Part shown: positions 15,530 through 32,236 of the stretch, piece by piece | How the letters are laid out: each line of letters begins with the position of its first letter | Numbering within the stretch: the first letter of the stretch is position 1 | Position numbers and translations under genes: made by a program | Origin: Hoeflea sp. | GTDB lineage: Bacteria; Pseudomonadota; Alphaproteobacteria; Rhizobiales; Rhizobiaceae | Direction: 5' to 3' | NCBI GenBank assembly: GCA_019084245.1 | Contig: JAHRFE010000004.1 | Location: 62,001-126,000, forward strand | Length of the DNA: 64,000 nucleotides | Notes under the pieces: model-generated | What the model was told of the DNA's origin: nothing | Seen by the model: the letters and a program-made list of their open reading frames with translations, nothing else | The model's database searches: none

Positions 15530-15585
15530 TGGCTCAATCCAGTTGGCCGGACCCCGCAAGGGATTCCGTGCAGGAACGCTGCAAT

Positions 15586-16065: not shown

Positions 16066-16229
16066 GGTGTGTCCTTTGCATCCGAGTGGTGGTGGCTGGC
16101 GTCCGGGATAAAATGACCTCCAGAGGTCACGTGAACGCGACTGAGGTCATACAAGCCTGTGCATGGCAGAACAGGTACGAGAAGCCGGGACCGCGCCTCG
16201 TCAGCGCGGCCCAGATCATGTTGCAGCGG

Positions 16230-17180: not shown

Positions 17181-17263
17181 TTGGTTTCCTCCCGAGAAAC
17201 TATGAAACTGACAAGACAGAGCTTGATTGCCCGGCCCTGCGGAGGGTGAATGTATTTCTGTCG

Positions 17264-17275
17264 ATTGTCAACAAT
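17264..17275. promoter_or_regulatory. Operator-like site A (ATTGTCAACAAT), ahead of tctC-1 operon
   Basis: The 12-mer ATTGTCAACAAT is a near-palindrome of the TTGT-n-ACAA kind bound by FadR/FCD-type GntR regulators. An identical copy precedes the second tctC (24278) and close variants occur at 18474, 24455 and 31512. It sits between tctC-1 and the upstream enolase gene. Confidence 0.65.
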
Positions 17276-17292
17276 TTGGTCGAATATCCTTT

Positions 17293-18402
17293 TCAGACGA
17301 CCAATGTGTCGCGAAAGGCGTCCTCGTTCAACGTCAACCCAAGCCCTGGACGGTCAGGGATAACCAACCAGCCATTCTGGGGCTTGGGCGCATCGGTAAA
17401 CAGGGTTTCTCCGACTGCGACCATGCCGAGATGCCATTCCGCTATCCAACCGTTCATCATGCCCGCCAGAAGATGCATGTTGAACAAGGGCCAGCCGCCG
17501 CCATTGGCAATCGGCATGTTGTAGGTCTGGGCGAGATGCGCGATCTTCCGCGCCTCGGTGAAGCCGCCGCAATAGGTCACGTTCGGCTGGAGAATATCCA
17601 CCGACTGATGCTCGATGAACTCCCGGTGCCGCCAGCGGTGCCCTTCCATCTGCCCTGCAGCAATCGGAATCCGGGTAGACCGGCGCAGGTCGCCCAGCGC
17701 ACGGGCATCATTCTGCGTTACCGGTTCTTCAAACCAGGTGATGCGGCAATCCTCGATTTCGCGGCAGAGATAGCTGGCCTCGACCGGATTGAAGAGATAG
17801 TTGGCGTCGATCATGATGTCGATGTCAGGGCCGACAGCGTCGCGAATTGCCTTGATTCGCCGGGCATCCTCACGCCAGCCGCCCTTGTCGACAGCCACAA
17901 CGGATTTCAATGCGGTAAACCCGTTGGCGACATGAAGTCGGGCCGCATCGGCCAGCTGATCGATGTCATATTGCGGAAAACCGAAGGTCACATAGGCCGG
18001 AATCCGGTCGCGGGCATTGCCCAGCATGGCGGCGACGCTGCGGCCGGACTGCTTGCCCGCAATGTCCCAAAGCGCGATATCCAGGCACGACAACGCCATC
18101 GATATTGTCCCCGACATGGCGCGCGGATTGAGCTTCTGCCAGATCTGCTGATGGATCTTTTCAACGTCACGCACGTCCATGCCCTTGACCACCGGCAGGA
18201 TGTGTTCGTGCAGCGCCACGATCACCGATCTGGCGAGAAAATGGCCGGTCAGCCCGAAGCCGATTGTGCCGTCCTCAGTTTCGACCTGGCAGAAGACAAA
18301 GTGTGTCTGCTCGGCTCTGCCATAGCCTTCGACGCGGCCCTCCAGCAGCGGAATGGTTATGGAAAATTTGTGCAGGCTGGCGCGAATGTCCTTGATGATC
18401 AC
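17293..18402 (-). CDS. Mandelate racemase/muconate lactonizing (enolase superfamily) protein, atypical
   Basis: A 369-residue enolase-superfamily protein. The metal ligands are visible: Asp in IMIDANYLF, Glu in WFEEPV and Glu in AAGQMEG. The catalytic bases are less clear: the KxK motif reads LKSVV (second Lys absent), and where acid-sugar dehydratases have PH-GG, this one has ANGGGWP, so the His of the His-Asp dyad seems replaced. Function is therefore uncertain; dehydration or epimerisation by another residue is possible. It is transcribed divergently from the dehalogenase-like gene with operator site B between them. Confidence 0.8.
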   Translation of the reverse strand: MIIKDIRASLHKFSITIPLLEGRVEGYGRAEQTHFVFCQVETEDGTIGFGLTGHFLARSVIVALHEHILPVVKGMDVRDVEKIHQQIWQKLNPRAMSGTISMALSCLDIALWDIAGKQSGRSVAAMLGNARDRIPAYVTFGFPQYDIDQLADAARLHVANGFTALKSVVAVDKGGWREDARRIKAIRDAVGPDIDIMIDANYLFNPVEASYLCREIEDCRITWFEEPVTQNDARALGDLRRSTRIPIAAGQMEGHRWRHREFIEHQSVDILQPNVTYCGGFTEARKIAHLAQTYNMPIANGGGWPLFNMHLLAGMMNGWIAEWHLGMVAVGETLFTDAPKPQNGWLVIPDRPGLGLTLNEDAFRDTLVV

Positions 18403-18473
18403 GATCGGTCTCCCTCAAATATCGCCATGGCGGGGCAAATTTTCCGCTCCGCAATTGTGTAGCAGCCTTTTGT

Positions 18474-18492
18474 ATTGTAAACAATTTACAAT
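18474..18492. promoter_or_regulatory. Operator-like site B: perfect 19-bp inverted repeat in divergent promoter
   Basis: ATTGTAAA-CAA-TTTACAAT is a perfect palindrome with 8-bp arms and a 3-base spacer, 15 bases before the dehalogenase-like start and 72 bases from the enolase gene start. Its 15-base core TGTAAACAATTTACA is the exact reverse complement of the site in front of the GntR gene (31512-31526), which strongly links the two. Confidence 0.75.
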
Positions 18493-18506
18493 ATGGAGAA
18501 ATCATC

Positions 18507-19457
18507 ATGTCATCAGTTGCACCGCCGCCGCTCAAGACCTCCGCCACCCTGATGGAAGGGTTTCGGCGACAAACCGTGAAGACAAGGGGCGCAGAGATTC
18601 AGGTCGCCATCGCCGGCGAAGGCCCCCCGCTTCTGCTCATCCACGGCAATCCGCTGACCCTTGTGAGCTGGCACAAGGTCGCGCCTTCGCTGGCGCAAGG
18701 ATTCACTGTCATCGCCATGGACCTGCGCGGATATGGCGACAGTTCCAAGCCAGATGGACAACCCGACCATTCTGCCTACACCTTCCGGGCGATGGGTGAG
18801 GACGCCTTCGATGTCATGGATCATTTCGGCTTTGAGAAATTCGCGGTAGCGGGTCATGACCGGGGCGCAAGGGTCGGGTTCCGGATGGCGCTCGACCAGC
18901 CGCAGCGCGTCACCCACCTTGCGGCTCTCGATATCGTGCCGACCCACACGGTGTTGACCAATGTGACCATGGGCTGGGGGCTCGAAAGCTATCACTGGTT
19001 CTTCATGGCGCAGAAGGCGCCGTTTCCCGAGCGGCTGATTGGCGCCGATCTCGACTATTACATCCATTACAAGCTCAACAAGAAGGGGGTTGGATTGGAA
19101 ATCTTCACGCCCGAAGCCATGGCCGAATATGTCCGCTGCACCACCCATGAGCAGATCCATGCCGTCTGCGAGGACTACCGGGCGACGGTGACGCTGGATC
19201 TCAAGATGGACAAGGCCGATTTCGGAAAGCGGCGGATCACGTGTCCGGTGCTTGTGCTGTGGGGGTCCAACAGTCATTGCGGCCGCCATTTCAATCCGGT
19301 GCAGGCATGGGGGGAATGGGCCGATCATCTCCAGGGATGTGCAATCCCTACCGGGCACTATCCGGCGGAACACAGGCCGGACCTGGTTTATCAGGCATTC
19401 TGGTCCTTCTTTCATGACGACCCGGTAGTGTTGCCGGAACCAGGCGGCGACGCATGA
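18507..19457 (+). CDS. Alpha/beta hydrolase of the fluoroacetate/haloacetate dehalogenase type
   Basis: A 316-residue alpha/beta hydrolase. Every residue I recall as diagnostic of fluoroacetate dehalogenase can be placed: Asp118 nucleophile with Arg119 and Arg122 (GHDRGARVG), Asp142 in LDIVPT, His163-Trp164 (SYHWFF) and Tyr224 (EDYRA) of the halide pocket, and His284 (TGHYPAEHRP). Family members hydrolyse haloacetates to glycolate, but related hydrolases with this signature can act on other small esters. The gene is divergent from the enolase-superfamily gene across operator site B and overlaps the rhodanese gene by 4 bases. Confidence 0.8.
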   Translation: MSSVAPPPLKTSATLMEGFRRQTVKTRGAEIQVAIAGEGPPLLLIHGNPLTLVSWHKVAPSLAQGFTVIAMDLRGYGDSSKPDGQPDHSAYTFRAMGEDAFDVMDHFGFEKFAVAGHDRGARVGFRMALDQPQRVTHLAALDIVPTHTVLTNVTMGWGLESYHWFFMAQKAPFPERLIGADLDYYIHYKLNKKGVGLEIFTPEAMAEYVRCTTHEQIHAVCEDYRATVTLDLKMDKADFGKRRITCPVLVLWGSNSHCGRHFNPVQAWGEWADHLQGCAIPTGHYPAEHRPDLVYQAFWSFFHDDPVVLPEPGGDA

Positions 19458-21019
19458 CTTCGCTTGGCGTCAAGGACGCACGCACACGGGTTCATGGCGG
19501 ACAGGAAATTGCATTCCTCGATATTCGCGAGGCCGGTCAGTTTGCCGAAGGCCATCCGCTGTTTGCCACACCCCTGCCCTTCAGCCAGTTGGAACAGCGG
19601 ATCGGCGCCTTGGCGCCGCGGCTGACAGTGCCGCTGCTGCTCATCGACAATGGCGACGGCGTCGCGCAACGGGCCCATCGCCGCCTGAGGGAAATCGGAT
19701 ACACGGACATCCGCTGGATCGAGGGAGGCATGCCGGCCTGGGAGAAGGCCGGCTACCCTGTCTACAAGGGTGTCAATGTTCCCTCCAAGACGCTGGGCGA
19801 GATGGCCGAGCACATCTGGCGGCCGAAAATGATGACGGCGGATGAGCTTGCACAGGCGATTGCTGAAGGCCGGGCTCCCGCGTTTTTCGATGCGCGTCCG
19901 GCTGCCGAATACGCCAAGATGCGGGTGCCGGGCTCTGTCTGCCTGCCCAATGGCGAATTGGCCCACCGGATATCCACGCTTGGCGACGCGCCGCAGGTCC
20001 TTATTACCTGTGCGGGCCGGACTCGTGGAATCACCGGTGCAATCGGACTGATGCTCACAGGCATTGACGGCTCGGTCGCGGCACTGGAAAACGGCACGCA
20101 GGGATGGGCCCTGTCAGGCCGCGATCTCGAGCGGGACAACCGGCCAGGCCCATTTCCCGCGCTGGATGCGGCCGGACTTGCCGCATCAAGAAAACGGGCG
20201 GAGGCGCTGATTGAGCGCTTCTCGCTGCAAGAAGCAAATTGCGTTGACGTCAAGCGGATGATGGGCGAGCTCGATCGAACCACTTACGTGTTCGATGTTC
20301 GCTCCCCGGATGAAGCACGAGGCGATCCCCTCGCTGTTGCCAACCATGCGGCTTCTGGACAATTGGTGCAGGCAACCGATCAATGGGTCAGCGTCCGCAA
20401 TTCGCGGCTCATCCTGTGTTGCGACACCGGTCTGCGTGCAGCGCTTGCAGCATTCTGGCTCGGCCAGTTGGGTTATGAGGTGCTTGTCGTCCGTATCGAT
20501 GACGCTTTGCGCGATCTGCCGGAACGTCCCGCAGTCGGCTCCCCGGCAATTCCCCAGACAGCAACCGTAAGCGCTGCTGAGCTGCTGGCGATGCCCAACG
20601 CAACCCTCCTTGACATGCGGCCGTCACCTGATTTTCGTGCATCCCATGTAAAGGGAGCCATCTGGACGACCAGACCGGGCCTGCCAGAGACGCTGGCGCG
20701 GAGCGGCGGCGGACCGGTTGTGATCCTGGCTGACTCCGGGGACCGGGCACGAATTTTCGCGCGGGACGCTGCGGAACTTGGTTTTGCCAATAGCTTCGCA
20801 CTCAGTGATGGCCACGCGGCGCTGGTCAATGCCGGCGCTGAGGTGGATGTGGATTCCCCTCACCCGGAGCCGTCCGAGGCGATCGATTTCCCCTGGTTCG
20901 TGCATGACAGGCATGACGGTAACCTGGACGCTTCCCGGCGTTATCTGGCCTGGGAAACCGGATTGATCGATCAATTGGACGATGTCGAGCGAGCGGAATA
21001 CCGGCTGGTGCGTCCCTAA
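19454..21019 (+). CDS. Four-domain rhodanese-like (sulfurtransferase) protein
   Basis: A 521-residue protein made of four rhodanese domains at about residues 15-105, 125-225, 255-355 and 370-465, then a conserved-looking tail (IDFPWFVHDRHDG). Domain 2 keeps an active-loop Cys (TCAGRTRG, C186) and domain 3 has CCDTGLRA (C322/C323). Domains 1 (IDNGDG) and 4 (ADSGDR) have Asp or Ala where Cys is expected, so active and inactive modules are arranged as 1-inactive, 2-3 active, 4-inactive. Rhodaneses transfer sulfane sulfur to thiophilic acceptors. Translation is coupled (ATGA) to the dehalogenase-like gene. Confidence 0.85.
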   Translation: MTSLGVKDARTRVHGGQEIAFLDIREAGQFAEGHPLFATPLPFSQLEQRIGALAPRLTVPLLLIDNGDGVAQRAHRRLREIGYTDIRWIEGGMPAWEKAGYPVYKGVNVPSKTLGEMAEHIWRPKMMTADELAQAIAEGRAPAFFDARPAAEYAKMRVPGSVCLPNGELAHRISTLGDAPQVLITCAGRTRGITGAIGLMLTGIDGSVAALENGTQGWALSGRDLERDNRPGPFPALDAAGLAASRKRAEALIERFSLQEANCVDVKRMMGELDRTTYVFDVRSPDEARGDPLAVANHAASGQLVQATDQWVSVRNSRLILCCDTGLRAALAAFWLGQLGYEVLVVRIDDALRDLPERPAVGSPAIPQTATVSAAELLAMPNATLLDMRPSPDFRASHVKGAIWTTRPGLPETLARSGGGPVVILADSGDRARIFARDAAELGFANSFALSDGHAALVNAGAEVDVDSPHPEPSEAIDFPWFVHDRHDGNLDASRRYLAWETGLIDQLDDVERAEYRLVRP

Positions 21020-21025
21020 TGCAAC

Positions 21026-21061
21026 GGGCCGGCAGCGCCCTCTCCTGGTGACTGCCGGCCC
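21026..21061. terminator. Stem-loop between convergent rhodanese and tctA-2 genes
   Basis: Perfect 10-bp stem GGGCCGGCAG (21026-21035) / CTGCCGGCCC (21052-21061) with a 16-base loop, directly after the rhodanese stop and 30 bases past the tctA-2 stop on the other strand. No T-tract, so a bidirectional but possibly factor-assisted terminator. Confidence 0.5.
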
Positions 21062-21090
21062 ATGATCGCTTGATCGGTTTGCTTCGAAGT

Positions 21091-22614
21091 CTAGCTCGAC
21101 GACCCTGTGGACAAGAACGCCTCTTTCGCCCGGCGGCGCTTCGAGACAATTTGCAGCAGGATGGAGCCGATCATCAGCGCGAAGATCACCAGCGCCCACG
21201 GCCGCTCCAGGCCATAGCCGATAAAATCGCCGCCGCTGATCTGGTTTGTCCTCAGCAGATTTCCCTCCAGCAAGCCGCCGAGCAACAGGCCGACGACGGC
21301 TGCCGCGACCGGATAGCCGTAGCGCACCATCCCCCAGCCGAGCACCGAGAACACCCAGAGCGTGATCGGGCCTGCGGAACTGCCTTCGATGGCATAGGCG
21401 CCGAAGGTCGAGACCACGAGCACGCTCGGGATCAGGAAGCGCAACGGAACCCTGACGACATAGCCCGCCACGTAGACGAAGCCGAGACCAACGAAGAACA
21501 GCAGGATTGCCTGTGCGAAGTTGGAGAACATGATGGCGTAGACGATGTCCTTGTTGTGGGCGATGAAGCTTGGTCCGCCGACGATATTGTGCATCGCGAA
21601 CGCCGCGAGCAGGATCGCCGTCGCGCCGCCGCCGGGAATGCCGAGCGCCAGCATCGTTGCCATGGCGCCGCCTTCGGAGGAGGAGTTTGCGGCCTCGGCC
21701 GCGATCACGCCCTTCGGGTTGCCTTCACCGAAAGTGTCTCCGTCGGGCGCGTTGCGTTTCGTCTCGGAATAGGAAAGCAGGTTGGAAATTGAGGATCCCA
21801 CGCCGGGTATGGCGCCAATGATGACGCCGATCAGCGACCCGCGGAAGATGATCGTTGGGTAGCGAAAGCACTGCCGGACGCCGCCCAGGATCTTGGCGAA
21901 GCTGATCTTGCGGGAGCTCTCATCCTCGATCAGGTATGTCGTGTTGATGAGACCGATCAACTGGCTGGCAGCAAGCAGACCCATCATCGCAGGGATCTGG
22001 GGCACGCCATCAAGAAGCCACGGAATGCCAACCGTCCCCCGGACGAAACCAGCCGTGTTCATGCCTATGGTTCCCAGCAATACGCCGAAAGTGCCTGCCA
22101 GGATGCCGCGGCTGATATGCGCGCCGGCAAGCGAACCGAGCAGCAGCATGCCCCAGACAGCCACCGCAAACATTTCCAGCGGCCCGAGCTTCAGGACGAC
22201 GCCCGAAATCGGGACGATCAGCACGAAGAGCATGGCGTAGCTTGCGAGGCAGCCAATGACCGAGGAGGCAAGCGCGATGCCCAGCGCCTCGCTGTGTAGC
22301 CCCTTGCGCGCCATCGGATAGCCGTCGAAGGTGGTGGCCACGGCCGACGACGTGCCGGGAATTCCCATAAGAACCGCAGGAACGGAACCACCGAAGCCGG
22401 CGCCCGTGTAGATAGCGGTCAGGAAGATGATGGCCGGCAGAAAATCCATGTAGAGCGTTGCCGGCAGGGCAAACGCCATGGCCATGGTGATCGATATGCC
22501 CGGCATCGCGCCGAAGACCAGCCCGATCAACAGACCGGGAAGCAGATAGAGCCAGGCATTGCCGTCGGAGGACAGCAATGTGAAGGCACCGTATACAGAA
22601 TCCAGCTCGATCAC
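21091..22614 (-). CDS. tctA: Tripartite tricarboxylate transporter permease TctA, system 2
   Basis: A 507-residue TctA permease with about 12 hydrophobic segments and family segments GLVFGAMPGISITMAMAFAL, AVLMGIPGTSSAVATTFDG and GAIPGVGSSISNLLSYSE. It follows TctB-2 by 10 bases and TctC-2 heads the unit. It is clearly distinct in sequence from system 1 (14018), so this is a second, non-redundant TTT importer rather than a fresh duplication. Function: carboxylate uptake across the inner membrane. Confidence 0.9.
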   Translation of the reverse strand: MIELDSVYGAFTLLSSDGNAWLYLLPGLLIGLVFGAMPGISITMAMAFALPATLYMDFLPAIIFLTAIYTGAGFGGSVPAVLMGIPGTSSAVATTFDGYPMARKGLHSEALGIALASSVIGCLASYAMLFVLIVPISGVVLKLGPLEMFAVAVWGMLLLGSLAGAHISRGILAGTFGVLLGTIGMNTAGFVRGTVGIPWLLDGVPQIPAMMGLLAASQLIGLINTTYLIEDESSRKISFAKILGGVRQCFRYPTIIFRGSLIGVIIGAIPGVGSSISNLLSYSETKRNAPDGDTFGEGNPKGVIAAEAANSSSEGGAMATMLALGIPGGGATAILLAAFAMHNIVGGPSFIAHNKDIVYAIMFSNFAQAILLFFVGLGFVYVAGYVVRVPLRFLIPSVLVVSTFGAYAIEGSSAGPITLWVFSVLGWGMVRYGYPVAAAVVGLLLGGLLEGNLLRTNQISGGDFIGYGLERPWALVIFALMIGSILLQIVSKRRRAKEAFLSTGSSS

Positions 22615-22624
22615 GGCGCCACAC

Positions 22625-23110
22625 TCAAAGGATTGTCAGAGGGAAAGGGAAAGGCGTGATTGTTCCATATCCGTAGATCAGGAACACGGTGAAGAGCGCG
22701 CTGAACAGGATGATGACCCACCAGCGCTTTTCCCCGCAGACCGCAAGCCCGATGACCATGAAGGCGAATGTGGCAACGTCGAAGCCCACCACTTCCAGCG
22801 AAAAGGCCAGACCCGCGAGTGCGGCGATCAGGATGAAGATACGAAAAAGGTCGCCCCGCGTCTCTACCTTGGTTTCCACCTCCTCCTTGGTTTCCACCTC
22901 CTCGGTCGCCTCGACTCGCGGAAAGATGCTCGGAAGGATGAAAGCCGCAAGCACCAGCGCGAGGATCGCGGCCGGCTGAACGAGCAGGAGGTTGTTGGTG
23001 CGCAACGAAACGCCGCGCGCATCCAAGAGATAGGCGACGACGACCCCGACGATCACGGTCAGGAGAATCAAATGACCCCAGACGACCGTCCGGCCTGATC
23101 TATTGCTCAT
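22625..23110 (-). CDS. tctB: Tripartite tricarboxylate transporter small permease TctB, system 2
   Basis: A 161-residue protein with about four transmembrane helices and TctB size and position. A charged linker between helices contains two tandem copies of a six-residue unit (EEVETK), encoded by an exact 18-bp tandem repeat (22867-22902). The start at 23110 (MSNRSG) has GGAGAG at a good distance; an ATG five codons earlier is possible. It lies between TctC-2 and TctA-2. Confidence 0.8.
   Translation of the reverse strand: MSNRSGRTVVWGHLILLTVIVGVVVAYLLDARGVSLRTNNLLLVQPAAILALVLAAFILPSIFPRVEATEEVETKEEVETKVETRGDLFRIFILIAALAGLAFSLEVVGFDVATFAFMVIGLAVCGEKRWWVIILFSALFTVFLIYGYGTITPFPFPLTIL
22867..22902 (-). 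repeat. Exact 18-bp tandem duplication inside tctB-2
   Basis: The 18-mer CCTTGGTTTCCACCTCCT occurs twice back to back (22867-22884, 22885-22902), giving a repeated acidic/basic linker in the TctB-2 cytoplasmic loop. The exact identity suggests a recent slippage event. Confidence 0.8.
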
Positions 23111-23180
23111 AGGCGTACTCTCCATCGTCCGGGGGGAGTGTCGGCGTTGACCGTCACTCCCCGCACACGTTTTGCGACGA

Positions 23181-24179
23181 CTAGTTGCCCTTCAGCAGAT
23201 CGATATACTGCTCCATCACCTTCGCGGTGCGAGCCAGCATCTGGTTCGACTCTTCGGGACCATACCAGTCGGTGGCGAGCTGCTGGTTCTTCAGCCCCTC
23301 GATCGCGGCCGGGTCCTTCGAGGCGGCTTCAATGGCGCTCACGAGTGTCTGAAAGACCTCCGGGTTCGACGTTTGCATGGAGCCATGCAGACCCCAGCCG
23401 CGCTGGGAACCGACCACAAAATCGGCGTCGGCGCCGAGAACGTCGGTCACGATCGCGCCGTCCCAATTGTCGCGCTTGCGGGTGTCGAAGGTCATCAGCG
23501 GACGGATCTGCTCCGCCAGCGGCAGGAAGCCTTCGCCACCGACGAGACCGACGTCGACCACGCCGCCCGCGACCGCGTTGCGTGCAGGTCCGCCGCCGTC
23601 ATAAGTCACGACGCGAACAGCGTTTGTATCGATCTCGTTGGCCGCGCACAGGATGCTGAAGTTAACCAGGTCGGCCGACGCCGGCTGGAGACCGACGGAA
23701 AGGCTGCCCGGATCGGCCTTGAGTCGGGAAATGACGTCATCCACCGTCTGGATGTCGGACCCGGCGCTGGTCGCCATCAGGGTATAGTCCTGCGACGGCA
23801 GGTTGACCATGTAGAAGTCTTCCAGCTTGAAGGCAGCATCCTGGGTCAGAATGTTAAGCGGAAGATAGGGTGCGGCCGAGGTGCAAAGAAGGGTGTAGCC
23901 GTCGTCCGGCTGCTGCAGGAAGAACGTGTGGCCGAGCAGCGCGCCAGCGCCGCCCCGATTGATGATTGTCAGCGGCTGACCGAGCTTCTCCTGCAGGAAC
24001 GGGGCAAAGGCCCGGGCCAGACGGTCATTGTAGCCGCCGGTGTCAAATGGAACGACGATATTGATCGGACGATCCGGATAGGCGCCCTGGGCGCGCAGGA
24101 TCGCCGGCATCGCGAACGATGCCGCAAGTCCGCCAGACGCGACCTTGAGGATTGTACGGCGTGTAAGTGTCTTGCTCAT
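23181..24179 (-). CDS. tctC: Tripartite tricarboxylate transporter substrate-binding protein TctC, system 2
   Basis: A 332-residue TctC/Bug periplasmic protein. The N-terminus has a twin-arginine-like motif (LTRRTILKVASGG) rather than the plain Sec signal of TctC-1, hinting at Tat export of a folded protein. Family segments: YPDRPINIVVPFDTGG, IINRGGAGALLGH. Start ATG at 24179 is preceded by GGAGG. Operator-like site C lies 99 bases upstream. It is the first gene of the tctCBA-2 unit, transcribed divergently from the PrpD-C operon. Confidence 0.9.
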   Translation of the reverse strand: MSKTLTRRTILKVASGGLAASFAMPAILRAQGAYPDRPINIVVPFDTGGYNDRLARAFAPFLQEKLGQPLTIINRGGAGALLGHTFFLQQPDDGYTLLCTSAAPYLPLNILTQDAAFKLEDFYMVNLPSQDYTLMATSAGSDIQTVDDVISRLKADPGSLSVGLQPASADLVNFSILCAANEIDTNAVRVVTYDGGGPARNAVAGGVVDVGLVGGEGFLPLAEQIRPLMTFDTRKRDNWDGAIVTDVLGADADFVVGSQRGWGLHGSMQTSNPEVFQTLVSAIEAASKDPAAIEGLKNQQLATDWYGPEESNQMLARTAKVMEQYIDLLKGN

Positions 24180-24277
24180 GAATTCCTCCACTGCGGGGCA
24201 TAATGCGAAATTTCCCCTGCGACGCAATGCGTCGCTGTCTCTCCCCGACTGTCCGCAGGGTAGGTTCGTGAAATCCA

Positions 24278-24289
24278 ATTGTCAACAAT
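24278..24289. promoter_or_regulatory. Operator-like site C (ATTGTCAACAAT), ahead of tctC-2
   Basis: Identical 12-mer to site A at 17264. It lies in the divergent 379-base region between tctC-2 and PrpD copy C, on the tctC-2 side. Identity of a 12-mer at the same relative place before two tctC genes argues for shared control. Confidence 0.65.
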
Positions 24290-24379
24290 AATGAGATTTT
24301 TGGGATATAATTGATAAGCTTGAGACAGATGAACACACGGAAACAAGGGTATCAAAGGCACCGAGATTTGTGATTTATG

Positions 24380-24397
24380 ACATGTTTTACAACATGT
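24380..24397. promoter_or_regulatory. 18-bp palindrome in tctC-2/PrpD-C divergent promoter
   Basis: ACATGTT-TTAC-AACATGT: perfect 7-bp arms around a 4-base spacer, midway between operator-like sites C and D. Its centre, read on the minus strand as TTGTAAAACA, resembles the GntR core, so it may be an additional weaker site or the target of another regulator. Confidence 0.45.
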
Positions 24398-24454
24398 TAT
24401 GTTGATATTCGCGCCCACGTGATGTGATTTGGCAATCCGATCTGAATATCAAAA

Positions 24455-24466
24455 GTTGTTGACAAT
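24455..24466. promoter_or_regulatory. Operator-like site D (GTTGTTGACAAT), ahead of PrpD-C operon
   Basis: On the minus strand this reads ATTGTCAACAAC, matching sites A and C at 11 of 12 positions. It lies 92 bases before the PrpD copy C start codon. The rest of the 24180-24558 intergenic stretch is AT-rich compared with the surroundings and contains no gene. Confidence 0.6.
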
Positions 24467-24558
24467 TGGCAGATAAGGTCGTTCAAGGGGGCAAGCGAGA
24501 CTGGACGAGTTCACGCGCATCGTCGTCCAGCCAAATGAAATTACGGGAGACACCAAAC

Positions 24559-25992
24559 ATGAGCAGTTCAGCAGCAGACCGGGCAATTGGTTCCAACAAC
24601 GATTTGGGTTTGAGCCAGGAAGTCGCCAATTTTGTTGTCGGCGCTGCCATCAGCGACTTGCCTGCCATCGTGATCGAGAACGGCAAGAAATCGATCCTCG
24701 ACGGGCTTGGCCTGGCGCTTTCCGGTTCGGTGGCTCAATCGGGCGAGTATGTCCGCACGCATCTTGCCGATATCGGACACCCTGAGGGTGCGGCAACCGT
24801 GATCGGCTCCGCTCTGATGATGCCGCCCCGCTTTGCCGCCTTCGCCAACGGGGTCGGAATTCATGCCGATGATTATGACGATACCCAGCTCGCAGTGGCG
24901 CGGGATCGCGTCTATGGCCTTCTCACGCACCCCACCGCACCCGCCCTGCCCGCAGCACTCGCCCTTGGCGAGGCGCACAAAAGCACGGGCGCCGAGGTGA
25001 TGCTCGCCTACCATCTGGGCGTTGAAGTCGAATGCAAGATCGCCGAGGCGATCAACCCCAGGCACTACCAGACAGGCTTTCATGCGACCGCGACATGCGG
25101 CACGTTTGCCGCGGCATCCGCAGCGGGACGCCTGATGGGCCTGAACAATGAGCAAATGGCGCGCGCGCTCTCGATCGCCGGCAGCCAGTCGGCCGGCCTG
25201 CGCGAGAATTTCGGCACCATGACCAAGCCCTTCCATGCCGGGCGCTCTTCCGAAAGCGGCGTTGTTGCGGCGCAGTTTGCCTCCTACGGCTGGACGGCGA
25301 CCGACAAGATCCTCGAGGCCCCGCGCGGATTCTTCTCAGCGGCTGGCGGCGGATACGATGCCACTGCCATCCACGGAAAGTTTGGCGCCCCATGGACCTT
25401 CGAGACGCCAGGTGTTTCGATCAAGCCACATCCATCGGGATCTTTGACCCATCCCGGAATGACCGAGATGATGCGGCTGATCCATGAACATGACATCAAG
25501 GCGGAGGACGTGGTCTCGGTCCGGGTCGGCACCAATTCGAACATGCCCAATGCCCTGATCCATCATCGTCCGACCAATGAGCTGCAGGCCAAGTTCTCGA
25601 TGGAGTTCTGCATGGCGATCCTTCTGATTGAACGCCGCGCCGGCCTGCCCGAGTTTCTCGACGAAACCGTCCTGCGTCCCGACGTCAAGGCGATGATCGA
25701 AAAGGTGGATTTCTGCATTGACGACCGCGCGGAAGCCGCAGGCTATCACCTTATGACCACCTATATCGACATCAAGCTCAAGGATGGCAGCACGATCAGC
25801 GGCATGGCCGACTTCGGCAAGGGCAGCCCGGCCAACCCGATGTCCTATCAGGAAGTGTCCGGCAAGTTCCTGGAGAATGCCGAGTTTGCCCGCTGGGACA
25901 TGGGCAAAGCCGGAACCGTGGTCGACATGGTGGCCGATTTCGAGAACCTGAAATCCATTGAGGCATTGATGTCTCTGCTCAGAACCGCCTGA
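24559..25992 (+). CDS. MmgE/PrpD family protein (copy C)
   Basis: A 477-residue MmgE/PrpD enzyme heading the plus-strand operon. Motifs: ADDYDDTQLA, GLLTHPTAPALPAA, VECKIAEAINP, GFHATATCGTF, FGTMTKPFHAGR and VSIKPHPSGSLTHP. These are very like copy A (5836), so copies A and C are probably a paralogous pair divided between the two operons. The ATG at 24559 has GGGAGA upstream; the open frame extends further 5' through the promoter region and is rejected. Reaction unknown; dehydratase, decarboxylase or epimerase are all precedented. Confidence 0.85.
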   Translation: MSSSAADRAIGSNNDLGLSQEVANFVVGAAISDLPAIVIENGKKSILDGLGLALSGSVAQSGEYVRTHLADIGHPEGAATVIGSALMMPPRFAAFANGVGIHADDYDDTQLAVARDRVYGLLTHPTAPALPAALALGEAHKSTGAEVMLAYHLGVEVECKIAEAINPRHYQTGFHATATCGTFAAASAAGRLMGLNNEQMARALSIAGSQSAGLRENFGTMTKPFHAGRSSESGVVAAQFASYGWTATDKILEAPRGFFSAAGGGYDATAIHGKFGAPWTFETPGVSIKPHPSGSLTHPGMTEMMRLIHEHDIKAEDVVSVRVGTNSNMPNALIHHRPTNELQAKFSMEFCMAILLIERRAGLPEFLDETVLRPDVKAMIEKVDFCIDDRAEAAGYHLMTTYIDIKLKDGSTISGMADFGKGSPANPMSYQEVSGKFLENAEFARWDMGKAGTVVDMVADFENLKSIEALMSLLRTA

Positions 25993-26019
25993 GCGACAGA
26001 ACCCAGAGGCACCGTGACA

Positions 26020-27129
26020 ATGGCACCGCAACCGGAGGATAAGGCTGAGAAGGGGAAACAAGCGTCACGCATGTCGCCGCGCAGCCTTGCCCTGCTCTGC
26101 CTGACCTATGTCCTTGCCAGCGTCGCGGGGTATCTTGCGACGCTGGTCGGGATGCCGTTGCCATGGATGCTCGGTCCATTCTTTCTTCTGGCTGCGGCAT
26201 CCGTTCTTGGCTACGTGTCGCCGATCATTCCGATGGGCAGGGAACTGGGCCAGGTGGCGATCGGCCTTGCTGTGGGCATGCGCTTCACGCCTGCGGTGCT
26301 GCTGGCGACTGCCACTCTTGTGCCGCACATGATGATTTCGACGCTTTACGTGATCGCCTACACATTCCTTGCCGCATTCCTGATCAAGCCGCTCGCGCGG
26401 ATCGACAATGTCTCTGCCTTTTTCGCGACCGCTGCGGGCGGCGTTGCCGACATGGCGTCGGTGTCGCGTGAATATGGCGGCGACCCCGGCTCGGTGGCGA
26501 TCGTTCACGCCATGCGGGTGGCGCTCGTGGTGGCGGTCGTTCCCTTTCTCGTCTTCTTTCTTGGCGAACATGGAAGCATGCCTGCGGAAACCGCTGCCGG
26601 GCCGGTCAATTATCTGACGCTGGCGCTCGCGCTGGTGCTTGCCTATCTGGTCGCAGTCGCGCTCAAGCCCACGCCCTTGCCCAATCCATGGCTTGTCGGG
26701 CCTATCCTTACCGGCATGGTTCTGGGGGTAAGCGAGATCCTGGTCGTCCAGGTGCCGCCCCTTCTGATCATTGTGGCCCAGATCATGCTGGGAACCTGGC
26801 TCGGATGCCAGTTCAAGCGAAGCCTGCTGGTGCGCCTGCCGCGCGTGACGTTTTCGGCGATGGCTGCGGCGCTGTTCATGATTTTGTGCGCCGCGCTCGG
26901 CGCCGTGGTGCTGTCCTATTTTGGCGACCTGCCCTACGCGACCAGCTTTCTCGCGCTCGCTCCCGCGGCGGTCACCGAAATGGTGCTGACCGCCAAGGTG
27001 ATGAACCTTGATGCGGAAATCGTCACCGCATTTCACGTCATGCGAATCGCCTTGGTCTCCTCCACGGTTCTCCTGGTCTTCAAACTCTACATGCGCATGA
27101 AAGGATCACACAGTGGATCTGGGATATAG
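26020..27129 (+). CDS. AbrB-family (GntP-fold) membrane transporter, copy 2
   Basis: A 369-residue membrane protein with about 10 hydrophobic segments in two halves, each with a PWMLGP / NPWLVGP entry and a GGVADMAS / PAAVTEMVLTAK partner motif, the internal duplication of the family. ATG at 26020 is preferred; a GTG six bases upstream (26014) is also in frame. It overlaps the SDR-2 start by 17 bases. Together with copy 1 it shows that each island operon carries a PrpD, an AbrB and an SDR. Substrate unknown. Confidence 0.75.
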   Translation: MAPQPEDKAEKGKQASRMSPRSLALLCLTYVLASVAGYLATLVGMPLPWMLGPFFLLAAASVLGYVSPIIPMGRELGQVAIGLAVGMRFTPAVLLATATLVPHMMISTLYVIAYTFLAAFLIKPLARIDNVSAFFATAAGGVADMASVSREYGGDPGSVAIVHAMRVALVVAVVPFLVFFLGEHGSMPAETAAGPVNYLTLALALVLAYLVAVALKPTPLPNPWLVGPILTGMVLGVSEILVVQVPPLLIIVAQIMLGTWLGCQFKRSLLVRLPRVTFSAMAAALFMILCAALGAVVLSYFGDLPYATSFLALAPAAVTEMVLTAKVMNLDAEIVTAFHVMRIALVSSTVLLVFKLYMRMKGSHSGSGI

Positions 27130-27907
27130 AGAGCGCCGCACCCTGATCGTCGGGGGCAGCTACGGCATCGGCAAGGCATCAGCCCAGCTGATGGCCAATG
27201 AGGGTGCACACGTCATTGTCGCCTCCCGCAGCAAGGAAAATCTCGATGTCGCCGTCGCGGAGATTGCCGAAACCGCCACGAAAAAACCGTCGAGCCTCGT
27301 CTGCGACGTGACGCAGCAGGGCTCGGGCAAGGTGCTTGCCGATGCTGTGGACCAACAATGGGCTGGCGAACTGGATGTCCTGGTCACGGCCGTCGGCGGC
27401 AGCATCCGCTCGGCCTTTGCGGACCTTGCCGATGAAGACTGGGTGGAAAACTACAACTTCAACATTCTGTCGACGGTTCGCGCAATCAGGGCATTGCTGC
27501 CAGCACTGGAAAAAGGCCGCAATCCGGCGATTGTCACCCTTGGTGCTGCGGCATCGAAAATGCCCTACCAGCACCAGATCGTCTCCAATGTGCACAAGGC
27601 AGGATTGCTGGGCCTGACTAAGACATTGGCGGCTGAACTCGCCGATCGCAACATCCGGATCAATTGCGTGGCGCCCGGCCGGACACTGACTCCGCTCTGG
27701 ACCAATCGCGCCGACAAAATGGCCGCGGAACAGGGCCGAACCCGCTCGGAAATCCTCGAAGATTTCTCCAAGGACATTCCGCTCGGCCGCTTCGGAAAAC
27801 CGGAAGAAGTGGCTGCCATGGTCGTCTGGCTCGCGTCTCCGCTTGCAAGCTATGTGACCGGCCAGGCGGTTAATGTTGATGGCGGCATTGCCCGCGGATT
27901 GCTTTAG
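27113..27907 (+). CDS. SDR family protein with atypical active site, copy 2
   Basis: A 264-residue SDR-fold protein with a glycine-rich loop (IVGGSYGIGKA) and C-terminal VNVDGGIARG. The usual NNAG is VTAVGG, the catalytic-Ser strand reads TLGAAAS, and the YxxxK motif is S-N-V-H-K, so the Tyr is replaced by Ser while the Lys remains. As in copy 1 (11872) the canonical triad is missing, though the replaced residues differ, which suggests separate subfamilies rather than one recent duplication. Its start overlaps AbrB-2, and PrpD copy D follows by 13 bases. Confidence 0.8.
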   Translation: MDLGYRERRTLIVGGSYGIGKASAQLMANEGAHVIVASRSKENLDVAVAEIAETATKKPSSLVCDVTQQGSGKVLADAVDQQWAGELDVLVTAVGGSIRSAFADLADEDWVENYNFNILSTVRAIRALLPALEKGRNPAIVTLGAAASKMPYQHQIVSNVHKAGLLGLTKTLAAELADRNIRINCVAPGRTLTPLWTNRADKMAAEQGRTRSEILEDFSKDIPLGRFGKPEEVAAMVVWLASPLASYVTGQAVNVDGGIARGLL

Positions 27908-27920
27908 GAAAGGACTATCA

Positions 27921-29321
27921 ATGTCGTCTCATACACATATCGCCACCAATGCCGAGGTTCCCGCGGTCACCAGACAGCTGGTAGACTGGATTGTCGACAT
28001 CAAGGGAAGCGACATCCCTGCGGACGTTCGCCGGGAAGGCCTGCGCACATTCGTCAACTGGGTCGGGTGTGCGGTCGGAGGTGCGCGTCATGAAACGATT
28101 GACCGGGCGCTCGCCGCAGTGACGCCGTTCTCAGGCAAGGCCACGTCTACTGTCCTTGGCCGGCCCGAGCGGCTCGACGCGCTGCATGCCGCACTTCTGA
28201 ACGGCATCACCTCGCATGTGCTTGACTATGACGACACCCATCTCAAGACCATCATCCATCCGGCGGGCCCGGTGGCCTCGGCGCTCCTCTCGCTCGCCGA
28301 ACTCCGCCCGATGTCAGGGGAGGATTTCCTCACCGCGCTCATCGTCGGCATTGAAGTCGAATGCCGGATCGGCAACGCGGTCTATCCCAACCATTATGAT
28401 CGCGGCTGGCACATCACCGGCACCGCAGGGGTGTTTGGCGCGGCAGCCGCCACCGGCAAGGCCATCGGCCTTTCCAGGCAGCAGATGCGCTGGGCGTTCG
28501 GAATTGCCGCAACCCAATCCTCGGGCTTGCGCGAAATGTTTGGAACGATGACCAAGAGCTTTCATCCGGGCCGCGCCGCACAGAACGGGTTGTTCTCAGC
28601 CTTGCTCGCCGAAGCGAATTTCGACAGTTCCGAGCGCGCCATCGAAGCCCCGCGCGGTTTCGCCAATGTGACATCGACAAAGCAGGACTATTCCGAGATA
28701 CTCGACGATCTCGGCACCCGGTGGGAATCTGCGCTCAACAGCTACAAGCCGTTTGCCTGCGGCATCGTCATTCACCCAACCATCGATGGCTGCCAGCAGA
28801 TCCGCAGCGAGATCGGCGATCGGGTCAACGCGATCAAGTCCGTTCATCTGACGACCCATCCGCTGGTTCTCGAACTCACCGGCAAGAAGACCCCGCGCAC
28901 CGGCCTTGAAGGCAAGTTCAGCGTCTTCCATTCGGCAGCTGCGGCGCTGCTCAAGGGTGATGGCGCGCCAACGGCCTTCACCGATGAACTGGTCAATCTG
29001 CCCGAAATAATCTCGCTCAGGGACCGGATTTCGGCCACCTCCGATCCGGACTGCCATGAAGCATCCGTAACGATCGACGTGACTTTCGAGGATGGCTCGA
29101 CCCTGACCAAACACATCGAGCGCGCGCTGGGCTCGAAAGATGTGCCGCTGACCGACGAGCAGATCGATACAAAGTTCATCACCCAGTCATCACTTGTGAT
29201 CGGGGAGCAAGCGACCAGGGCGCTGCTCGCCATTTCCTGGGATCTCGAATCTCTTTCCAGCGTCGCCGAGGTCGCCCGCATCTCCGTCGGCGGCTCAAAA
29301 GCAAACGCGAAGGCAGTCTGA
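27921..29321 (+). CDS. MmgE/PrpD family protein (copy D)
   Basis: A 466-residue MmgE/PrpD enzyme with HVLDYDDTHLKTIIHP, GWHITGTAGVFGAA, FGTMTKSFHPGRAA and YKPFACGIVIHP active-site segments. ATG at 27921 has an AGGAAAGGA ribosome-binding site; a longer frame begins inside the SDR gene. It is followed after 2 bases by the first of two beta-decarboxylating dehydrogenases, so its product may feed an oxidative decarboxylation. Substrate not deducible. Confidence 0.85.
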   Translation: MSSHTHIATNAEVPAVTRQLVDWIVDIKGSDIPADVRREGLRTFVNWVGCAVGGARHETIDRALAAVTPFSGKATSTVLGRPERLDALHAALLNGITSHVLDYDDTHLKTIIHPAGPVASALLSLAELRPMSGEDFLTALIVGIEVECRIGNAVYPNHYDRGWHITGTAGVFGAAAATGKAIGLSRQQMRWAFGIAATQSSGLREMFGTMTKSFHPGRAAQNGLFSALLAEANFDSSERAIEAPRGFANVTSTKQDYSEILDDLGTRWESALNSYKPFACGIVIHPTIDGCQQIRSEIGDRVNAIKSVHLTTHPLVLELTGKKTPRTGLEGKFSVFHSAAAALLKGDGAPTAFTDELVNLPEIISLRDRISATSDPDCHEASVTIDVTFEDGSTLTKHIERALGSKDVPLTDEQIDTKFITQSSLVIGEQATRALLAISWDLESLSSVAEVARISVGGSKANAKAV

Positions 29322-29323
29322 TC

Positions 29324-30421
29324 ATGGCATCCACGGCAACCAAGTCCCATCTCAAGTTGGGCATCCTCGAAGGCGATGATATCGGCCACGAGATTGTTCC
29401 GGCGTCGGTCCGGATCGCCAAGGCCGCCGCTGCAGCCACCGGTCTGGAAATCGATTGGGTGGATGTCCCCATCGGCCGCCGTGCGCTCGATGAACTCGGC
29501 CACACCATGCCGGAGGGGACGCTCGAAACACTGGGCGGGCTGGATGGCTGGATCCTCGGGCCGATCGGGCACCGGGAATACCCCAAGGTGCCTGAAGCGA
29601 TCAATCCGCACCCGATCCTGCGCAAGCGGTTCGACCTGTTTGCCAATGTGCGGCCGACGCGGTCCTTCCCGGACATCGGCTGCCTGCACGACGATATCGA
29701 CATGGTGATCGTGCGCGAAAACAATGAGGGCTTCCAGCCCGACCGCAACGTGGTGATGGGATCGGGGGAATTCCGGCCGACCCACGACGTGACGATTTCC
29801 GTCCGCGTGATCACCGTGGAGGGATCTTCCAAGGTGGCGCGCGCTGCTTTTGAGATCGCGCGATCCCGCAAGAAACGGTTGACGCTCGTCCACAAGAACA
29901 CGGTCTACAAGCTCGGCTGCGGCATGTTTGTCGACAGCTGCTATGAGGTCGCCAAGGATTTTCCGGATGTGACCGTCGACGAAGTGATCGTCGACACGAT
30001 GGCGATGCGGCTGGTGCGCGATCCGCAAAGCTTCGACACGATCGTCACCACCAACATGTTCGGCGACATCCTGACCGATGAGGCTGCCGGTCTGGTTGGC
30101 GGCCTCGGCATGGCGCCCGGACTGTGCATCGGCCGCGGCTCGATTGCCATGGCGCAGGCAACCCACGGATCCGCTCCCGACATTACCGGCAAGAACATTG
30201 CGAACCCTTTTGCCATGATCGAATCAACCCGCATGTTGCTTGACTGGCTGGGGAGGCGTCACGGCCTTGATGCGGCGATTGAAGCATCGGAGTTGATGAA
30301 AAAAGGCATAGACGCAGCGATTTCCAATCCGGCCACCCGCACCCCGGATATCCGCGGAACTGCGAGCCAATCGCAAATGATCGACGGGATCCTCGCGGGC
30401 ATGGGTGCCACCGATGCGTAG
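29324..30421 (+). CDS. Isocitrate/isopropylmalate dehydrogenase family protein
   Basis: A 365-residue NAD-dependent beta-decarboxylating dehydrogenase. Seen: ANVRPTRSFP substrate-loop region, VIVRENNEGFQ, the catalytic-Lys strand LVHKNTVYK, DTMAMRLVRDP, NMFGDILTDEAAGL (metal-binding Asp) and HGSAPDITGKNIANP near the NAD site. These enzymes oxidise and decarboxylate 2-hydroxy acids with a 3-carboxyl. It is not a standard LeuB or Icd by its substrate loop (RENNEGFQPDRN), so substrate is open. It overlaps the next, paralogous gene by 8 bases. Confidence 0.85.
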   Translation: MASTATKSHLKLGILEGDDIGHEIVPASVRIAKAAAAATGLEIDWVDVPIGRRALDELGHTMPEGTLETLGGLDGWILGPIGHREYPKVPEAINPHPILRKRFDLFANVRPTRSFPDIGCLHDDIDMVIVRENNEGFQPDRNVVMGSGEFRPTHDVTISVRVITVEGSSKVARAAFEIARSRKKRLTLVHKNTVYKLGCGMFVDSCYEVAKDFPDVTVDEVIVDTMAMRLVRDPQSFDTIVTTNMFGDILTDEAAGLVGGLGMAPGLCIGRGSIAMAQATHGSAPDITGKNIANPFAMIESTRMLLDWLGRRHGLDAAIEASELMKKGIDAAISNPATRTPDIRGTASQSQMIDGILAGMGATDA

Positions 30422-31490
30422 GCACCGAATCGCGGCCATCGGTGGCGACGGCGTCGGTCCGGAAGTCATTTCCGCGGGCCTCGAGGTGATCACGGCGCTG
30501 TCCGCCAAACTAGGTGATTTCCAGATCGAGGCGCAGAGTTTTGACTGGGGATCGGAGCTTTACCGCAACACCGGAGTGATGATGCCCGCGGACGGCGCCG
30601 ACAGGTTGCGTGGGTTCGACGCGATCTTCTTCGGCGCCGTCGGCGCCCCTGACATCGCTGACCACATCACGCTATGGGAATTGCGGCTGGCTATCTGCCA
30701 GGGACTGGACCAATACGCCAATGTACGGCCGACAAAACTTCTGCCCGGCATGCGCGGCCCATTGATGCCGGAACTGGGCGCACAGATTGACTGGGTCATC
30801 GTTCGCGAGAACTCCGAAGGTGAATATGCCGGCGTTGGCGGCAGGGCACATGCGGCATTGTCGCTTGAACTGGCAATGGATGTCTCGGTATTCACGCGTG
30901 CAGGTATTGAGCGGATTGCGCGATATGCCTGCGAACTGGCGATGAAGCGTCCGCGAAAGCGGCTGACCGTGGTGACGAAATCGAATGCGCAACGGCATGG
31001 CATGGTGCTGTGGGATCAGGTCTGCCGCGAGGTGCTGATCGATTACCCCGAGCTTGAGACCGACTTCATGCTGGTTGACGCCATGGCCGCCAAGATGGTG
31101 ACCAGCCCCGGGACCTATGACACGATCCTCGCGACAAATCTGCATGCCGACATCCTATCCGACCTTGCGTCCGCGTTGACCGGCAGCCTGGGCAATGGCG
31201 CGACGGCCAATCTCAATCCTTCGGGCGATGCGCCGTCGATGTTTGAACCGATCCATGGTTCCGCATTCGACATCACCGGCAAGGGAATCGCCAACCCCAT
31301 CGGCGCATTCTGGACAGCCGCCATGATGCTGGACCATCTGGGAGAGAGGCAGGCCGCAGATGTCCTGATGGAGGCAATCGGATCGGTCTGCCAGTCCGGA
31401 CCCCATACGCCCGATATGGGCGGACAAGCCAGTACGGCTGCCGTGACTCAGGCCGTCATCCAGGCGATCTCAGAATTGGGGATGGGCTAG
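30414..31490 (+). CDS. D-malate/tartrate dehydrogenase-like protein (TtuC/DmlA type)
   Basis: A 358-residue enzyme of the same superfamily as its neighbour but of the tartrate dehydrogenase/D-malate dehydrogenase type: RIAAIGGDGVGPEV, DAIFFGAVGAPDIADHITLW, QYANVRPTKLLPG, VRENSEGEYAGVGG, TKSNAQRHGM, NLHADILSDL and FEPIHGSAFDITGKGIANP line up with my memory of E. coli DmlA. Such enzymes act on D-malate, L- or meso-tartrate. ATG at 30414 overlaps the preceding stop; a GTG at 30405 is possible. It fits the TarD-like gene in pointing to tartrate-like substrates. Confidence 0.85.
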   Translation: MRRHRIAAIGGDGVGPEVISAGLEVITALSAKLGDFQIEAQSFDWGSELYRNTGVMMPADGADRLRGFDAIFFGAVGAPDIADHITLWELRLAICQGLDQYANVRPTKLLPGMRGPLMPELGAQIDWVIVRENSEGEYAGVGGRAHAALSLELAMDVSVFTRAGIERIARYACELAMKRPRKRLTVVTKSNAQRHGMVLWDQVCREVLIDYPELETDFMLVDAMAAKMVTSPGTYDTILATNLHADILSDLASALTGSLGNGATANLNPSGDAPSMFEPIHGSAFDITGKGIANPIGAFWTAAMMLDHLGERQAADVLMEAIGSVCQSGPHTPDMGGQASTAAVTQAVIQAISELGMG

Positions 31491-31511
31491 ATATTGGGCT
31501 TTATAGATTAG

Positions 31512-31526
31512 TGTAAATTGTTTACA
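31512..31526. promoter_or_regulatory. Operator-like site E: inverted repeat directly ahead of GntR gene
   Basis: TGTAAA-TTG-TTTACA is a perfect palindrome with 6-bp arms, ending 8 bases before the regulator's ATG. It is the exact reverse complement of the core of site B (18474-18492), which implies autoregulation and shared control of the distant divergent promoter. Confidence 0.75.
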
Positions 31527-31534
31527 TAGCGCGC

Positions 31535-32236
31535 ATGGATAGTTCGATGGACAACAGTACATCAAGTCAAACAGCGCAAAACGATTTGCAGGTTCTGCGC
31601 ACGTCGTCCCTGACAGGCGCGCTCGTGCGTGAGTTGGAGCACCTTATTCTGACCGGGGAACTCAAACCCGGCGAGCGCCTCAACGAAATCCAGCTGTCGG
31701 CACGATTTGGCACCAGCCGCGGCCCCCTCCGCGAAGCCACCCGCACACTTGAGGCCAAGGGCCTTGTCGACGCCATCCGCAACCGGGGTGTATTCGTCCG
31801 CTCAATATCTTCGGAAGAAGCGCTTGAGATTTACGACATAAGGGCGGCCCTGTTCGGTCTCGCCGGCCGTCTGCTGACCGACATGATCACGGATGCCATG
31901 CTGGTAAGGCTCAACGAGTTCCTGAATCAAATGGATGAAATAGCCCAGCAGCGCGACTTCGACCGCTATTATCCGCTCAATCTTCAGTTTCATGATTTTC
32001 TGATCAAATCGACCAACAACAAGACGCTTGCCCGGGAATACAAAAGTCTTGTCAACAAGTTGCACCTCTGCCGCGCGCGCGGCCTGGTGCAGGCGGGTGG
32101 CCTGGCTGTTTCAAATCACGAGCACCGCGAAATGGTCGATGCCCTCGCTTCGGGCAACCGGGAGCGTGCCCAAGAGGCATTCTTCCGCCATGTCGAGCGC
32201 TCAAAGCAGCGATTTACCACAACACTGGCGAAATAG
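31535..32236 (+). CDS. GntR family (FadR/FCD) transcriptional regulator
   Basis: A 233-residue regulator with an N-terminal winged helix-turn-helix (LILTGELKPGERLNEIQLSA, then SRGPLREATRTLEAKGL) and a C-terminal helical FCD ligand-binding domain (EIYDIRAALFGLAGR, LNLQFHDFLIKS with metal-ligand-type His, and HREMVDALASGN). FCD regulators typically bind TTGT-n-ACAA type palindromes and respond to carboxylic acids. The gene lies at the end of the PrpD-C operon, with operator-like site E overlapping its 5' region and no strong ribosome-binding site. It is the natural candidate for control of all five sites A-E. Confidence 0.9.
   Translation: MDSSMDNSTSSQTAQNDLQVLRTSSLTGALVRELEHLILTGELKPGERLNEIQLSARFGTSRGPLREATRTLEAKGLVDAIRNRGVFVRSISSEEALEIYDIRAALFGLAGRLLTDMITDAMLVRLNEFLNQMDEIAQQRDFDRYYPLNLQFHDFLIKSTNNKTLAREYKSLVNKLHLCRARGLVQAGGLAVSNHEHREMVDALASGNRERAQEAFFRHVERSKQRFTTTLAK

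Follow-up and report, generated by a model that had tools for sequence, protein, structure and literature searches.

A candidate GntR/FCD regulon with three-half-site operators in a transporter and PrpD-rich island of Hoeflea sp.

A 64,000-nucleotide stretch of the genome of Hoeflea sp. (assembly GCA_019084245.1, contig JAHRFE010000004.1, positions 62,001 to 126,000 of the forward strand), hereafter the window and numbered from its first base, carries an island of TctABC transporter and MmgE/PrpD-family genes together with the gene of a GntR/FCD regulator. Five short inverted repeats stand in front of the units of this island, which raises the question of whether they are operators of one regulator and whether that regulator is the protein encoded beside them. 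The reading favored here, at a probability of about 0.86, is that the VanR-like GntR/FCD protein of the island uses the five sites as its operators, would repress these units and its own gene, and would be released by a carboxylate.

Sequence and occurrence of the sites

The five sites listed in the preliminary description were all recovered, at 17264, 18474, 24278, 24455 and 31512. The sequence ATTGTCAACAAT is present at both 17264 and 24278, and the 24455 site (GTTGTTGACAAT) gives an 11/12 match as its reverse complement, ATTGTCAACAAC. The 18474 site is ATTGTAAACAATTTACAAT and the 31512 site is TGTAAATTGTTTACA; as had been claimed, the reverse complement of the latter matches the 15-base core of the former exactly. 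The 18474 site had also been called a perfect 19-bp palindrome; it does have two perfect 8-bp arms, but these are separated by a 3-bp centre, CAA, so that the palindrome is not unbroken. Near-identity of all five sites holds in part. Four of them (17264, 18474, 24278 and 24455) have TTGT-N2-ACAA in common, a form that agrees with the FCD operator consensus given in excerpts of Suvorova et al. (PMC4494728), namely a palindrome with GT/AC cores, NyGT-Nx-ACNy. The 31512 site lacks the exact TTGT-N2-ACAA, lies two mismatches from ATTGTNNACAAT, and belongs to the set through a pattern of three half-sites.

Judged from their register, the 12-mer and the 15/19-mer can be set into a single asymmetric operator, predicted as TTGT-N2-ACAA-N3-ACA; the 15-base core would then mark where the inverted pair overlaps a third half-site repeated in tandem at 7 bp. 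A reading as two separate motifs, a 12-mer and a 15/19-mer, was rejected because four of the five sites match TGT-N2-ACAR-N3-RCA in one common register and the fifth, at 24278, keeps the inverted pair.

The operator predicted for the tctC-1 operon spans 17258..17275 on the minus strand (TTGT TG ACAA TCG ACAG, with three half-sites) and holds a TTGACA facing tctC-1. The divergent gap between the enolase-family and alpha/beta hydrolase genes holds a predicted operator at 18474..18492 on the plus strand (TTGT AA ACAA TTT ACAA). The predicted tctC-2 operator, at 24278..24289 on the minus strand (TTGT TG ACAA TTG GATT), has a poor third half-site and a TTGACA facing tctC-2, and that of the prpD-B operon, at 24455..24472 on the plus strand (TTGT TG ACAA TTG GCAG), has a TTGACA at 24459-24464 facing prpD-B. 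The predicted gntR operator lies at 31511..31527 on the minus strand (ATGT AA ACAA TTT ACAC, with the 15-bp core at 31512-31526), and this site ends 7 bp ahead of the gntR start codon. The 24278 and 24455 sites share one divergent intergenic region of 379 bp.

The possibility that an AT-rich inverted repeat has simply recurred by chance in intergenic DNA was weighed with counts in the window and in shuffled sequence. The pattern TTGTNNACAA has five matches in the window against 0.35 expected, and none of 100 shuffles reached five. Four of these matches are reported sites; the fifth is not 31512 but a position within the gntR coding sequence, 32049. ATTGTNNACAAT at up to one mismatch also has five matches against 0.76 expected, consisting of four sites and a position at 44494. 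When all 256 four-base arms were searched with spacers of 0-6 in the intergenic DNA from 3819 to 32890 (1,887 bp in gaps of at least 20 bp, 653 bp of it after gntR), TTGT-N2-ACAA ranked first with four copies, whereas in 100 dinucleotide shuffles no combination of arm and spacer exceeded three copies, a number reached in 3 of the 100. Short palindromes do recur, and 33 of the 42 TTGTNNACAA matches outside the window are coding, presumably by chance. The shuffle tests, together with conservation above shuffles at orthologous promoters across genera, nevertheless make chance recurrence a negligible prospect as the explanation of the five sites.

The genome comprises 4,822,139 bases in 46 contigs. 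Exact ATTGTNNACAAT is found at four places in it, three of them in the island (17264, 18474 and 24278) and the other at C30:174091, in the divergent gap ahead of another FCD gene. TTGTNNACAA occurs at 47 places, while its reversed control has 13. When genes were called from codon usage by a simple program that had been trained on 19 genes of the window, nine of those outside the window fell in intergenic DNA, and therefore 4 of 13 intergenic places belong to the island. The relaxed three-half-site form, TGTNNACARNNNRCA, gave 20 matches against 4 for its reversed control. Fourteen of these are in coding sequence, including one at 32050 within gntR; of the six in intergenic DNA, four are island sites, all except 24278, and the remaining two are at C12:50605, with no clear target, and at C28:8875. 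The preliminary description had held that a motif frequent genome-wide outside carboxylate operons would speak against the regulon; this test is answered in its favor, as the exact and three-half-site forms of the sites are rare elsewhere.

A sequence matching the operator pattern, TTGTCAACAAGTTGCA, was also observed at 32049-32064 inside the gntR coding sequence, and a similar coding match is present in L039. The match within gntR is probably a coding chance, but Atu1419 does have a degenerate operator inside a target gene.

Conservation and overlap with promoter boxes

Distinct 220-bp upstream sequences of related genes were compared, the 12-mer being accepted at up to two mismatches and counted against shuffles. 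Identity was limited to at least 70% for prpD-B, at least 60% for tctC-1 and the hydrolase, and at least 50% for tctC-2 and gntR, and rows were dropped that fell below these limits, had a match starting after residue 40, had less than 150 bp upstream, or were exact duplicates. The own genome is included in all counts except that for gntR, which is of relatives alone, and many of the sequences come from related species. The site was found upstream of prpD-B in 36 of 36 sequences (2.0 in shuffles), of tctC-1 in 10 of 10 (0.6), of tctC-2 in 19 of 20 (1.6), of the hydrolase in 8 of 9 (0.7) and of gntR in 17 of 25 (1.3). The relatives that bear it include genomes of Rhizobium, Hoeflea, Chelativorans and Rhodobacteraceae type, and the gntR site is present in the majority of these, though not in every one.

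The sampled loci were 32 with a GntR relative plus further ones from genome searches with the GntR, PrpD-B and enolase-family proteins. Among the loci with a GntR relative and those from the prpD-B search of the family, all 44 with prpD-B above 60% identity and upstream DNA have a site within two mismatches (the cut locus L039 was set aside). In a second arrangement, in loci L167-L180, a different but related GntR (40-45% identical) is encoded directly ahead of prpD-B, and the operator between them is kept in 14 of 14. Of 12 enolase-family loci, the own included, the tctC-1 site and the enolase/hydrolase site are both retained in the seven relatives that are 83-95% identical; four loci at 51-53% identity have no such neighbours and were not counted. 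Both the site and a GntR relative are present in G840, G807 and G1107, and neither in G882 and G1073. Island relatives are patchily distributed: within the order, 20 of 397 genomes gave a GntR match at E 1e-40, and within the family, 28 of 394 gave one to prpD-B at E 1e-150, the own genome being counted in both.

In most of the units the third half-site is kept along with the inverted pair. A gene-proximal ACA is present at 31 of 36 prpD-B sites, 7 of 10 tctC-1 sites and 8 of 8 hydrolase sites; 12 of the 17 gntR sites have the ACA on the side away from the gene. The prpD-B sites were aligned by taking the gene-proximal site with a GACA centre, a rule that lost no locus and chose between sites at two-site loci. 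The 44 rows were reduced to 36 distinct sequences and then to 31 of at least 60 bases, with five shorter rows excluded. Across these 31 sites there is hardly any variation in TGT-W-GACA-R-T, and the bases of the third ACA are retained in 25, 29 and 28 of 31, whereas little information is found in most of the flanking columns. Six Roseomonas-type loci (L064-L069) have CTGT-TG-ACAG-N3-ACAR upstream of gntR, which is the same layout with the outer base changed.

The conserved sequence might alternatively be only the TTGACA -35 box of constitutive promoters, with no operator. Three of the five sites contain TTGACA, in each case directed towards the gene. In the prpD-B operators it faces prpD-B, being replaced by TAGACA in L165 and L166, and the tctC sites have the same centre facing the opposite way, towards tctC. 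In the prpD-B alignment TTGACA is followed by a 17-bp spacer and then by a T-W-N3-T tendency (columns +27, +28 and +32). The left TGT and the third ACA of that alignment lie beyond the -35 box and are also conserved, on which ground the plain -35 reading was rejected. The hydrolase/enolase and gntR sites have no TTGACA and retain the half-sites, which argues that the conserved element is not merely a promoter. A -35 box without an operator is thus very improbable, and the favored reading of operators that overlap -35-like boxes is retained.

The regulator, its paralogues and the proposed control

The GntR/FCD regulator is a protein of 233 amino acids encoded at 31535..32236 on the plus strand. 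It has an N-terminal GntR winged helix (PF00392, 60.1 bits against a cut-off of 27) and a C-terminal FCD domain (PF07729, 84.4 bits against 24.3). Judged by eye from their spacing, N149, H153, H197 and H219 (N-x3-H ... H-x21-H) have the arrangement of the metal site of Atu1419, formed by Asn137, His141, His192 and His214 in excerpts of PMC7797058. The best NCBIfam match is TIGR03338 phnR_burk at 228.3 bits, which is below the cut-off of 271.5; the family is that of a phosphonate-utilisation-associated regulator, whereas the neighbours here are of carboxylate type. The recognition helix SRGPLREA is unchanged in all 10 of the orthologues that were sampled among L040-L062, differs by one residue (SRGPVREA) in three Roseomonas-type relatives sampled, and is SRGPIREA in 14 of 14 of the related GntR proteins ahead of prpD-B in L167-L180. 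The genome encodes 17 FCD proteins, and SRGPLREA is absent from the other 16, the nearest being SRGTLREA in L022.

Solid precedents for the island GntR as an operator-binding repressor are AlkR with its operator ATTGTCAGACAAT and Atu1419 with ATGTATACAT. AlkR is a VanR-group FCD repressor whose operator was footprinted and overlaps promoter boxes (PMC12042122). It has the same ATTGT/ACAAT arms, but the arm spacer is 3 rather than 2, the target studied is alkB2 and release is by long-chain acyl-CoA; stoichiometry suggested a tetramer. Atu1419 of Agrobacterium fabrum is a tetrameric VanR-group FCD repressor with the same TGT-N2-ACA core and spacing and an Asn/His metal site in its FCD domain, and citrate was seen bound in its crystals (PMC7797058). 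It differs in controlling hydroxycinnamate degradation and in its proposed effector, methylene-tetrahydrofolate, and no third half-site is mentioned in the excerpts. For regulators of the FadR, HutC and YtrA subfamilies, Suvorova et al. (PMC4494728) describe additional, weaker half-sites at 7-12 nt from the centre of the site, while the third half-site of the island is gene-proximal and mostly ACA at the prpD-B, tctC-1 and hydrolase promoters. The present regulon was not met in the excerpts of that study, and among the papers listed by literature searches, with RegPrecise outside their range, none describes it as far as titles and abstract openings show.

A separate observation concerns the intergenic TTGTAGACAAGTTGCA at C28:8875, which lies approximately 100 bp upstream of a gene whose translation, judged by eye, resembles an AlkB-type alkane monooxygenase; AlkR, in the excerpted account (PMC12042122), is an FCD regulator with a similar operator at an alkB gene.

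In the proposed mechanism the inverted pair TTGT-N2-ACAA of each operator would be bound by a GntR dimer, and the third half-site ACA, seven bases on in most sites, may accommodate a further dimer or else a tetramer. RNA polymerase would be excluded at the prpD-B and tctC promoters because the inverted pair overlaps the TTGACA -35-like box, and the gntR-proximal site would provide autoregulation. GntR would be released when a carboxylate, either taken up or produced through the island, occupies the metal site in its FCD domain, so that the two TctABC transporters and the PrpD and dehydrogenase enzymes would be switched on together.

Several observations weigh against this assignment. At one mismatch ATTGTNNACAAT is not rare, occurring at 88 places in the genome against 8 for the reversed control. 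No site is present in 8 of the 25 distinct gntR upstream sequences (L050, L051, L052, L054, L058, L059, L062 and L070), L165 has no tctC-2 site and L053 no hydrolase site. Among the five prpD-B loci that the class search gave at 60-68% identity, the site is present in only one, before the distant prpD relative of G1141, a genome that has no GntR match at E 1e-15; G853 and G823 have FCD relatives (36 and 31%) and no site. The constancy of the GACA centre was partly chosen, because the alignment took sites with that centre. The third half-site at 24278 is GATT and a full ACA is present in 0 of 19 tctC-2 sites, and the window's own prpD-B -10 box is poor by eye (TTCAAG, 3/6). Finally, a perfect ATTGTATACAAT is present at C30:174091 (L094), in the gap between an ABC-transporter ATPase-like gene and a divergent FCD regulator gene (C30:174451). 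It is likely to be the own operator of that neighbouring regulator, and since it adjoins another FCD gene, specificity does not come from the inverted pair by itself, and some cross-talk may occur.

This last site, together with the number of FCD proteins in the genome and with GT/AC palindromes being a theme of the whole family (excerpts of PMC4494728 and PMC12042122), lends itself to the view that a paralogue binds all or some of the sites, with cross-talk, leaving the island GntR in control of some. The sites travel with the island units across genera, however, and are found at gntR in 17 of 25 relatives; four of the six intergenic three-half-site matches are in the island, and the helix SRGPLREA is in no other FCD protein of this genome. 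Control by a paralogue is therefore considered improbable.

The claim that one FCD regulator governs the island is supported by the conserved sites, the rarity of their exact forms and the distinct helix; that a single protein acts at all five sites is what we infer from these. Binding by the island GntR, repression, the inducer and co-transcription across each unit are predictions of the same kind. The island most likely represents a real, conserved local regulon with the three-half-site operator of a VanR-like GntR/FCD repressor, an ordinary kind of control that is useful in its detail. For VanR-like FCD regulators it also supplies a conserved case of an operator that has three half-sites and a direction.

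The paired tctC-2 and prpD-B sites are 177 bp apart, compared to the two palindromes of Atu1419, which stand 190 bp apart in a divergent gap, a distance that Atu1419 loops as a tetramer (excerpts of PMC7797058). In 20 divergent tctC loci the distance ranges over 114-240 bp and clusters at a 10.4-bp period with R 0.56, a figure that is too favourable because the loci are related. With the same caveat, the best R over periods of 10-11 bp was matched by 0.8% of the trials of a jitter null and the in-phase value at exactly 10.5 bp by 2.5%, and for the 17 loci without L058, L162 and L166 the corresponding values were 1.4% and 9.6%. Class sampling yielded few divergent loci. The spacings hint, though not convincingly, that helically phased looping may take place at the paired sites. 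A fuller proposal would make the island GntR a tetrameric looping repressor, one tetramer bridging the paired operators about whole helical turns apart across genera, with the gene-proximal third half-site giving direction, a shared tricarboxylate-type inducer and an undescribed PrpD-rich pathway; taken as a whole this is speculative and rather unlikely to hold.

Genes of the island and the possible substrate

The proposed tctC-1 operon occupies 3819..17180 on the minus strand and would be transcribed as one unit. It encodes TctC, TctB, TctA, an MmgE/PrpD protein, a short-chain dehydrogenase/reductase (SDR) and an AbrB-family membrane protein, and also an enolase-superfamily protein, an acyl-CoA dehydrogenase, a class III CoA-transferase, a further MmgE/PrpD protein, a FAS1-like dehydratase and an NMO-family flavoprotein. 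Several of its genes overlap by 4 bp, with gaps of 164 bp between tctC-1 and tctB-1 and 187 bp before the last gene. An enolase-superfamily gene of the mandelate racemase/muconate lactonizing type follows at 17293..18402 on the minus strand. On the plus strand the alpha/beta hydrolase gene and a multi-rhodanese gene, which overlap by 4 bp, occupy 18507..21019. The tctC-2, tctB-2 and tctA-2 transporter operon lies at 21091..24179 on the minus strand. The prpD-B unit, at 24559..31490 on the plus strand, consists of prpD-B, an AbrB-family gene, an SDR gene, prpD-C and genes for an isocitrate/isopropylmalate-type dehydrogenase and a tartrate-dehydrogenase-type enzyme (TIGR02089, 496.9 bits against a cut-off of 470.4).

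The units under the sites thus encode two TctABC transporters and two AbrB-family membrane proteins, together with four MmgE/PrpD proteins, two SDRs, two enolase-superfamily proteins, a class III CoA-transferase, an acyl-CoA dehydrogenase and two isocitrate/isopropylmalate-type dehydrogenases, one of which is over the tartrate dehydrogenase cut-off. Under the favored reading these loosely annotated transporter and PrpD-family genes become one regulated unit, and their substrate becomes testable, since whatever inducer frees GntR is expected to be what the pathway consumes or one of its products.

With its MmgE/PrpD, CoA-transferase and acyl-CoA dehydrogenase genes the island recalls the itaconate/methylsuccinate cluster described in excerpts of PMC12290011, but no citramalyl-CoA lyase was found among the proteins scanned. 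The FAS1-like dehydratase of the tctC-1 unit, with the MmgE/PrpD, CoA-transferase and acyl-CoA dehydrogenase proteins encoded beside it, is likewise reminiscent of itaconate/methylsuccinate clusters.

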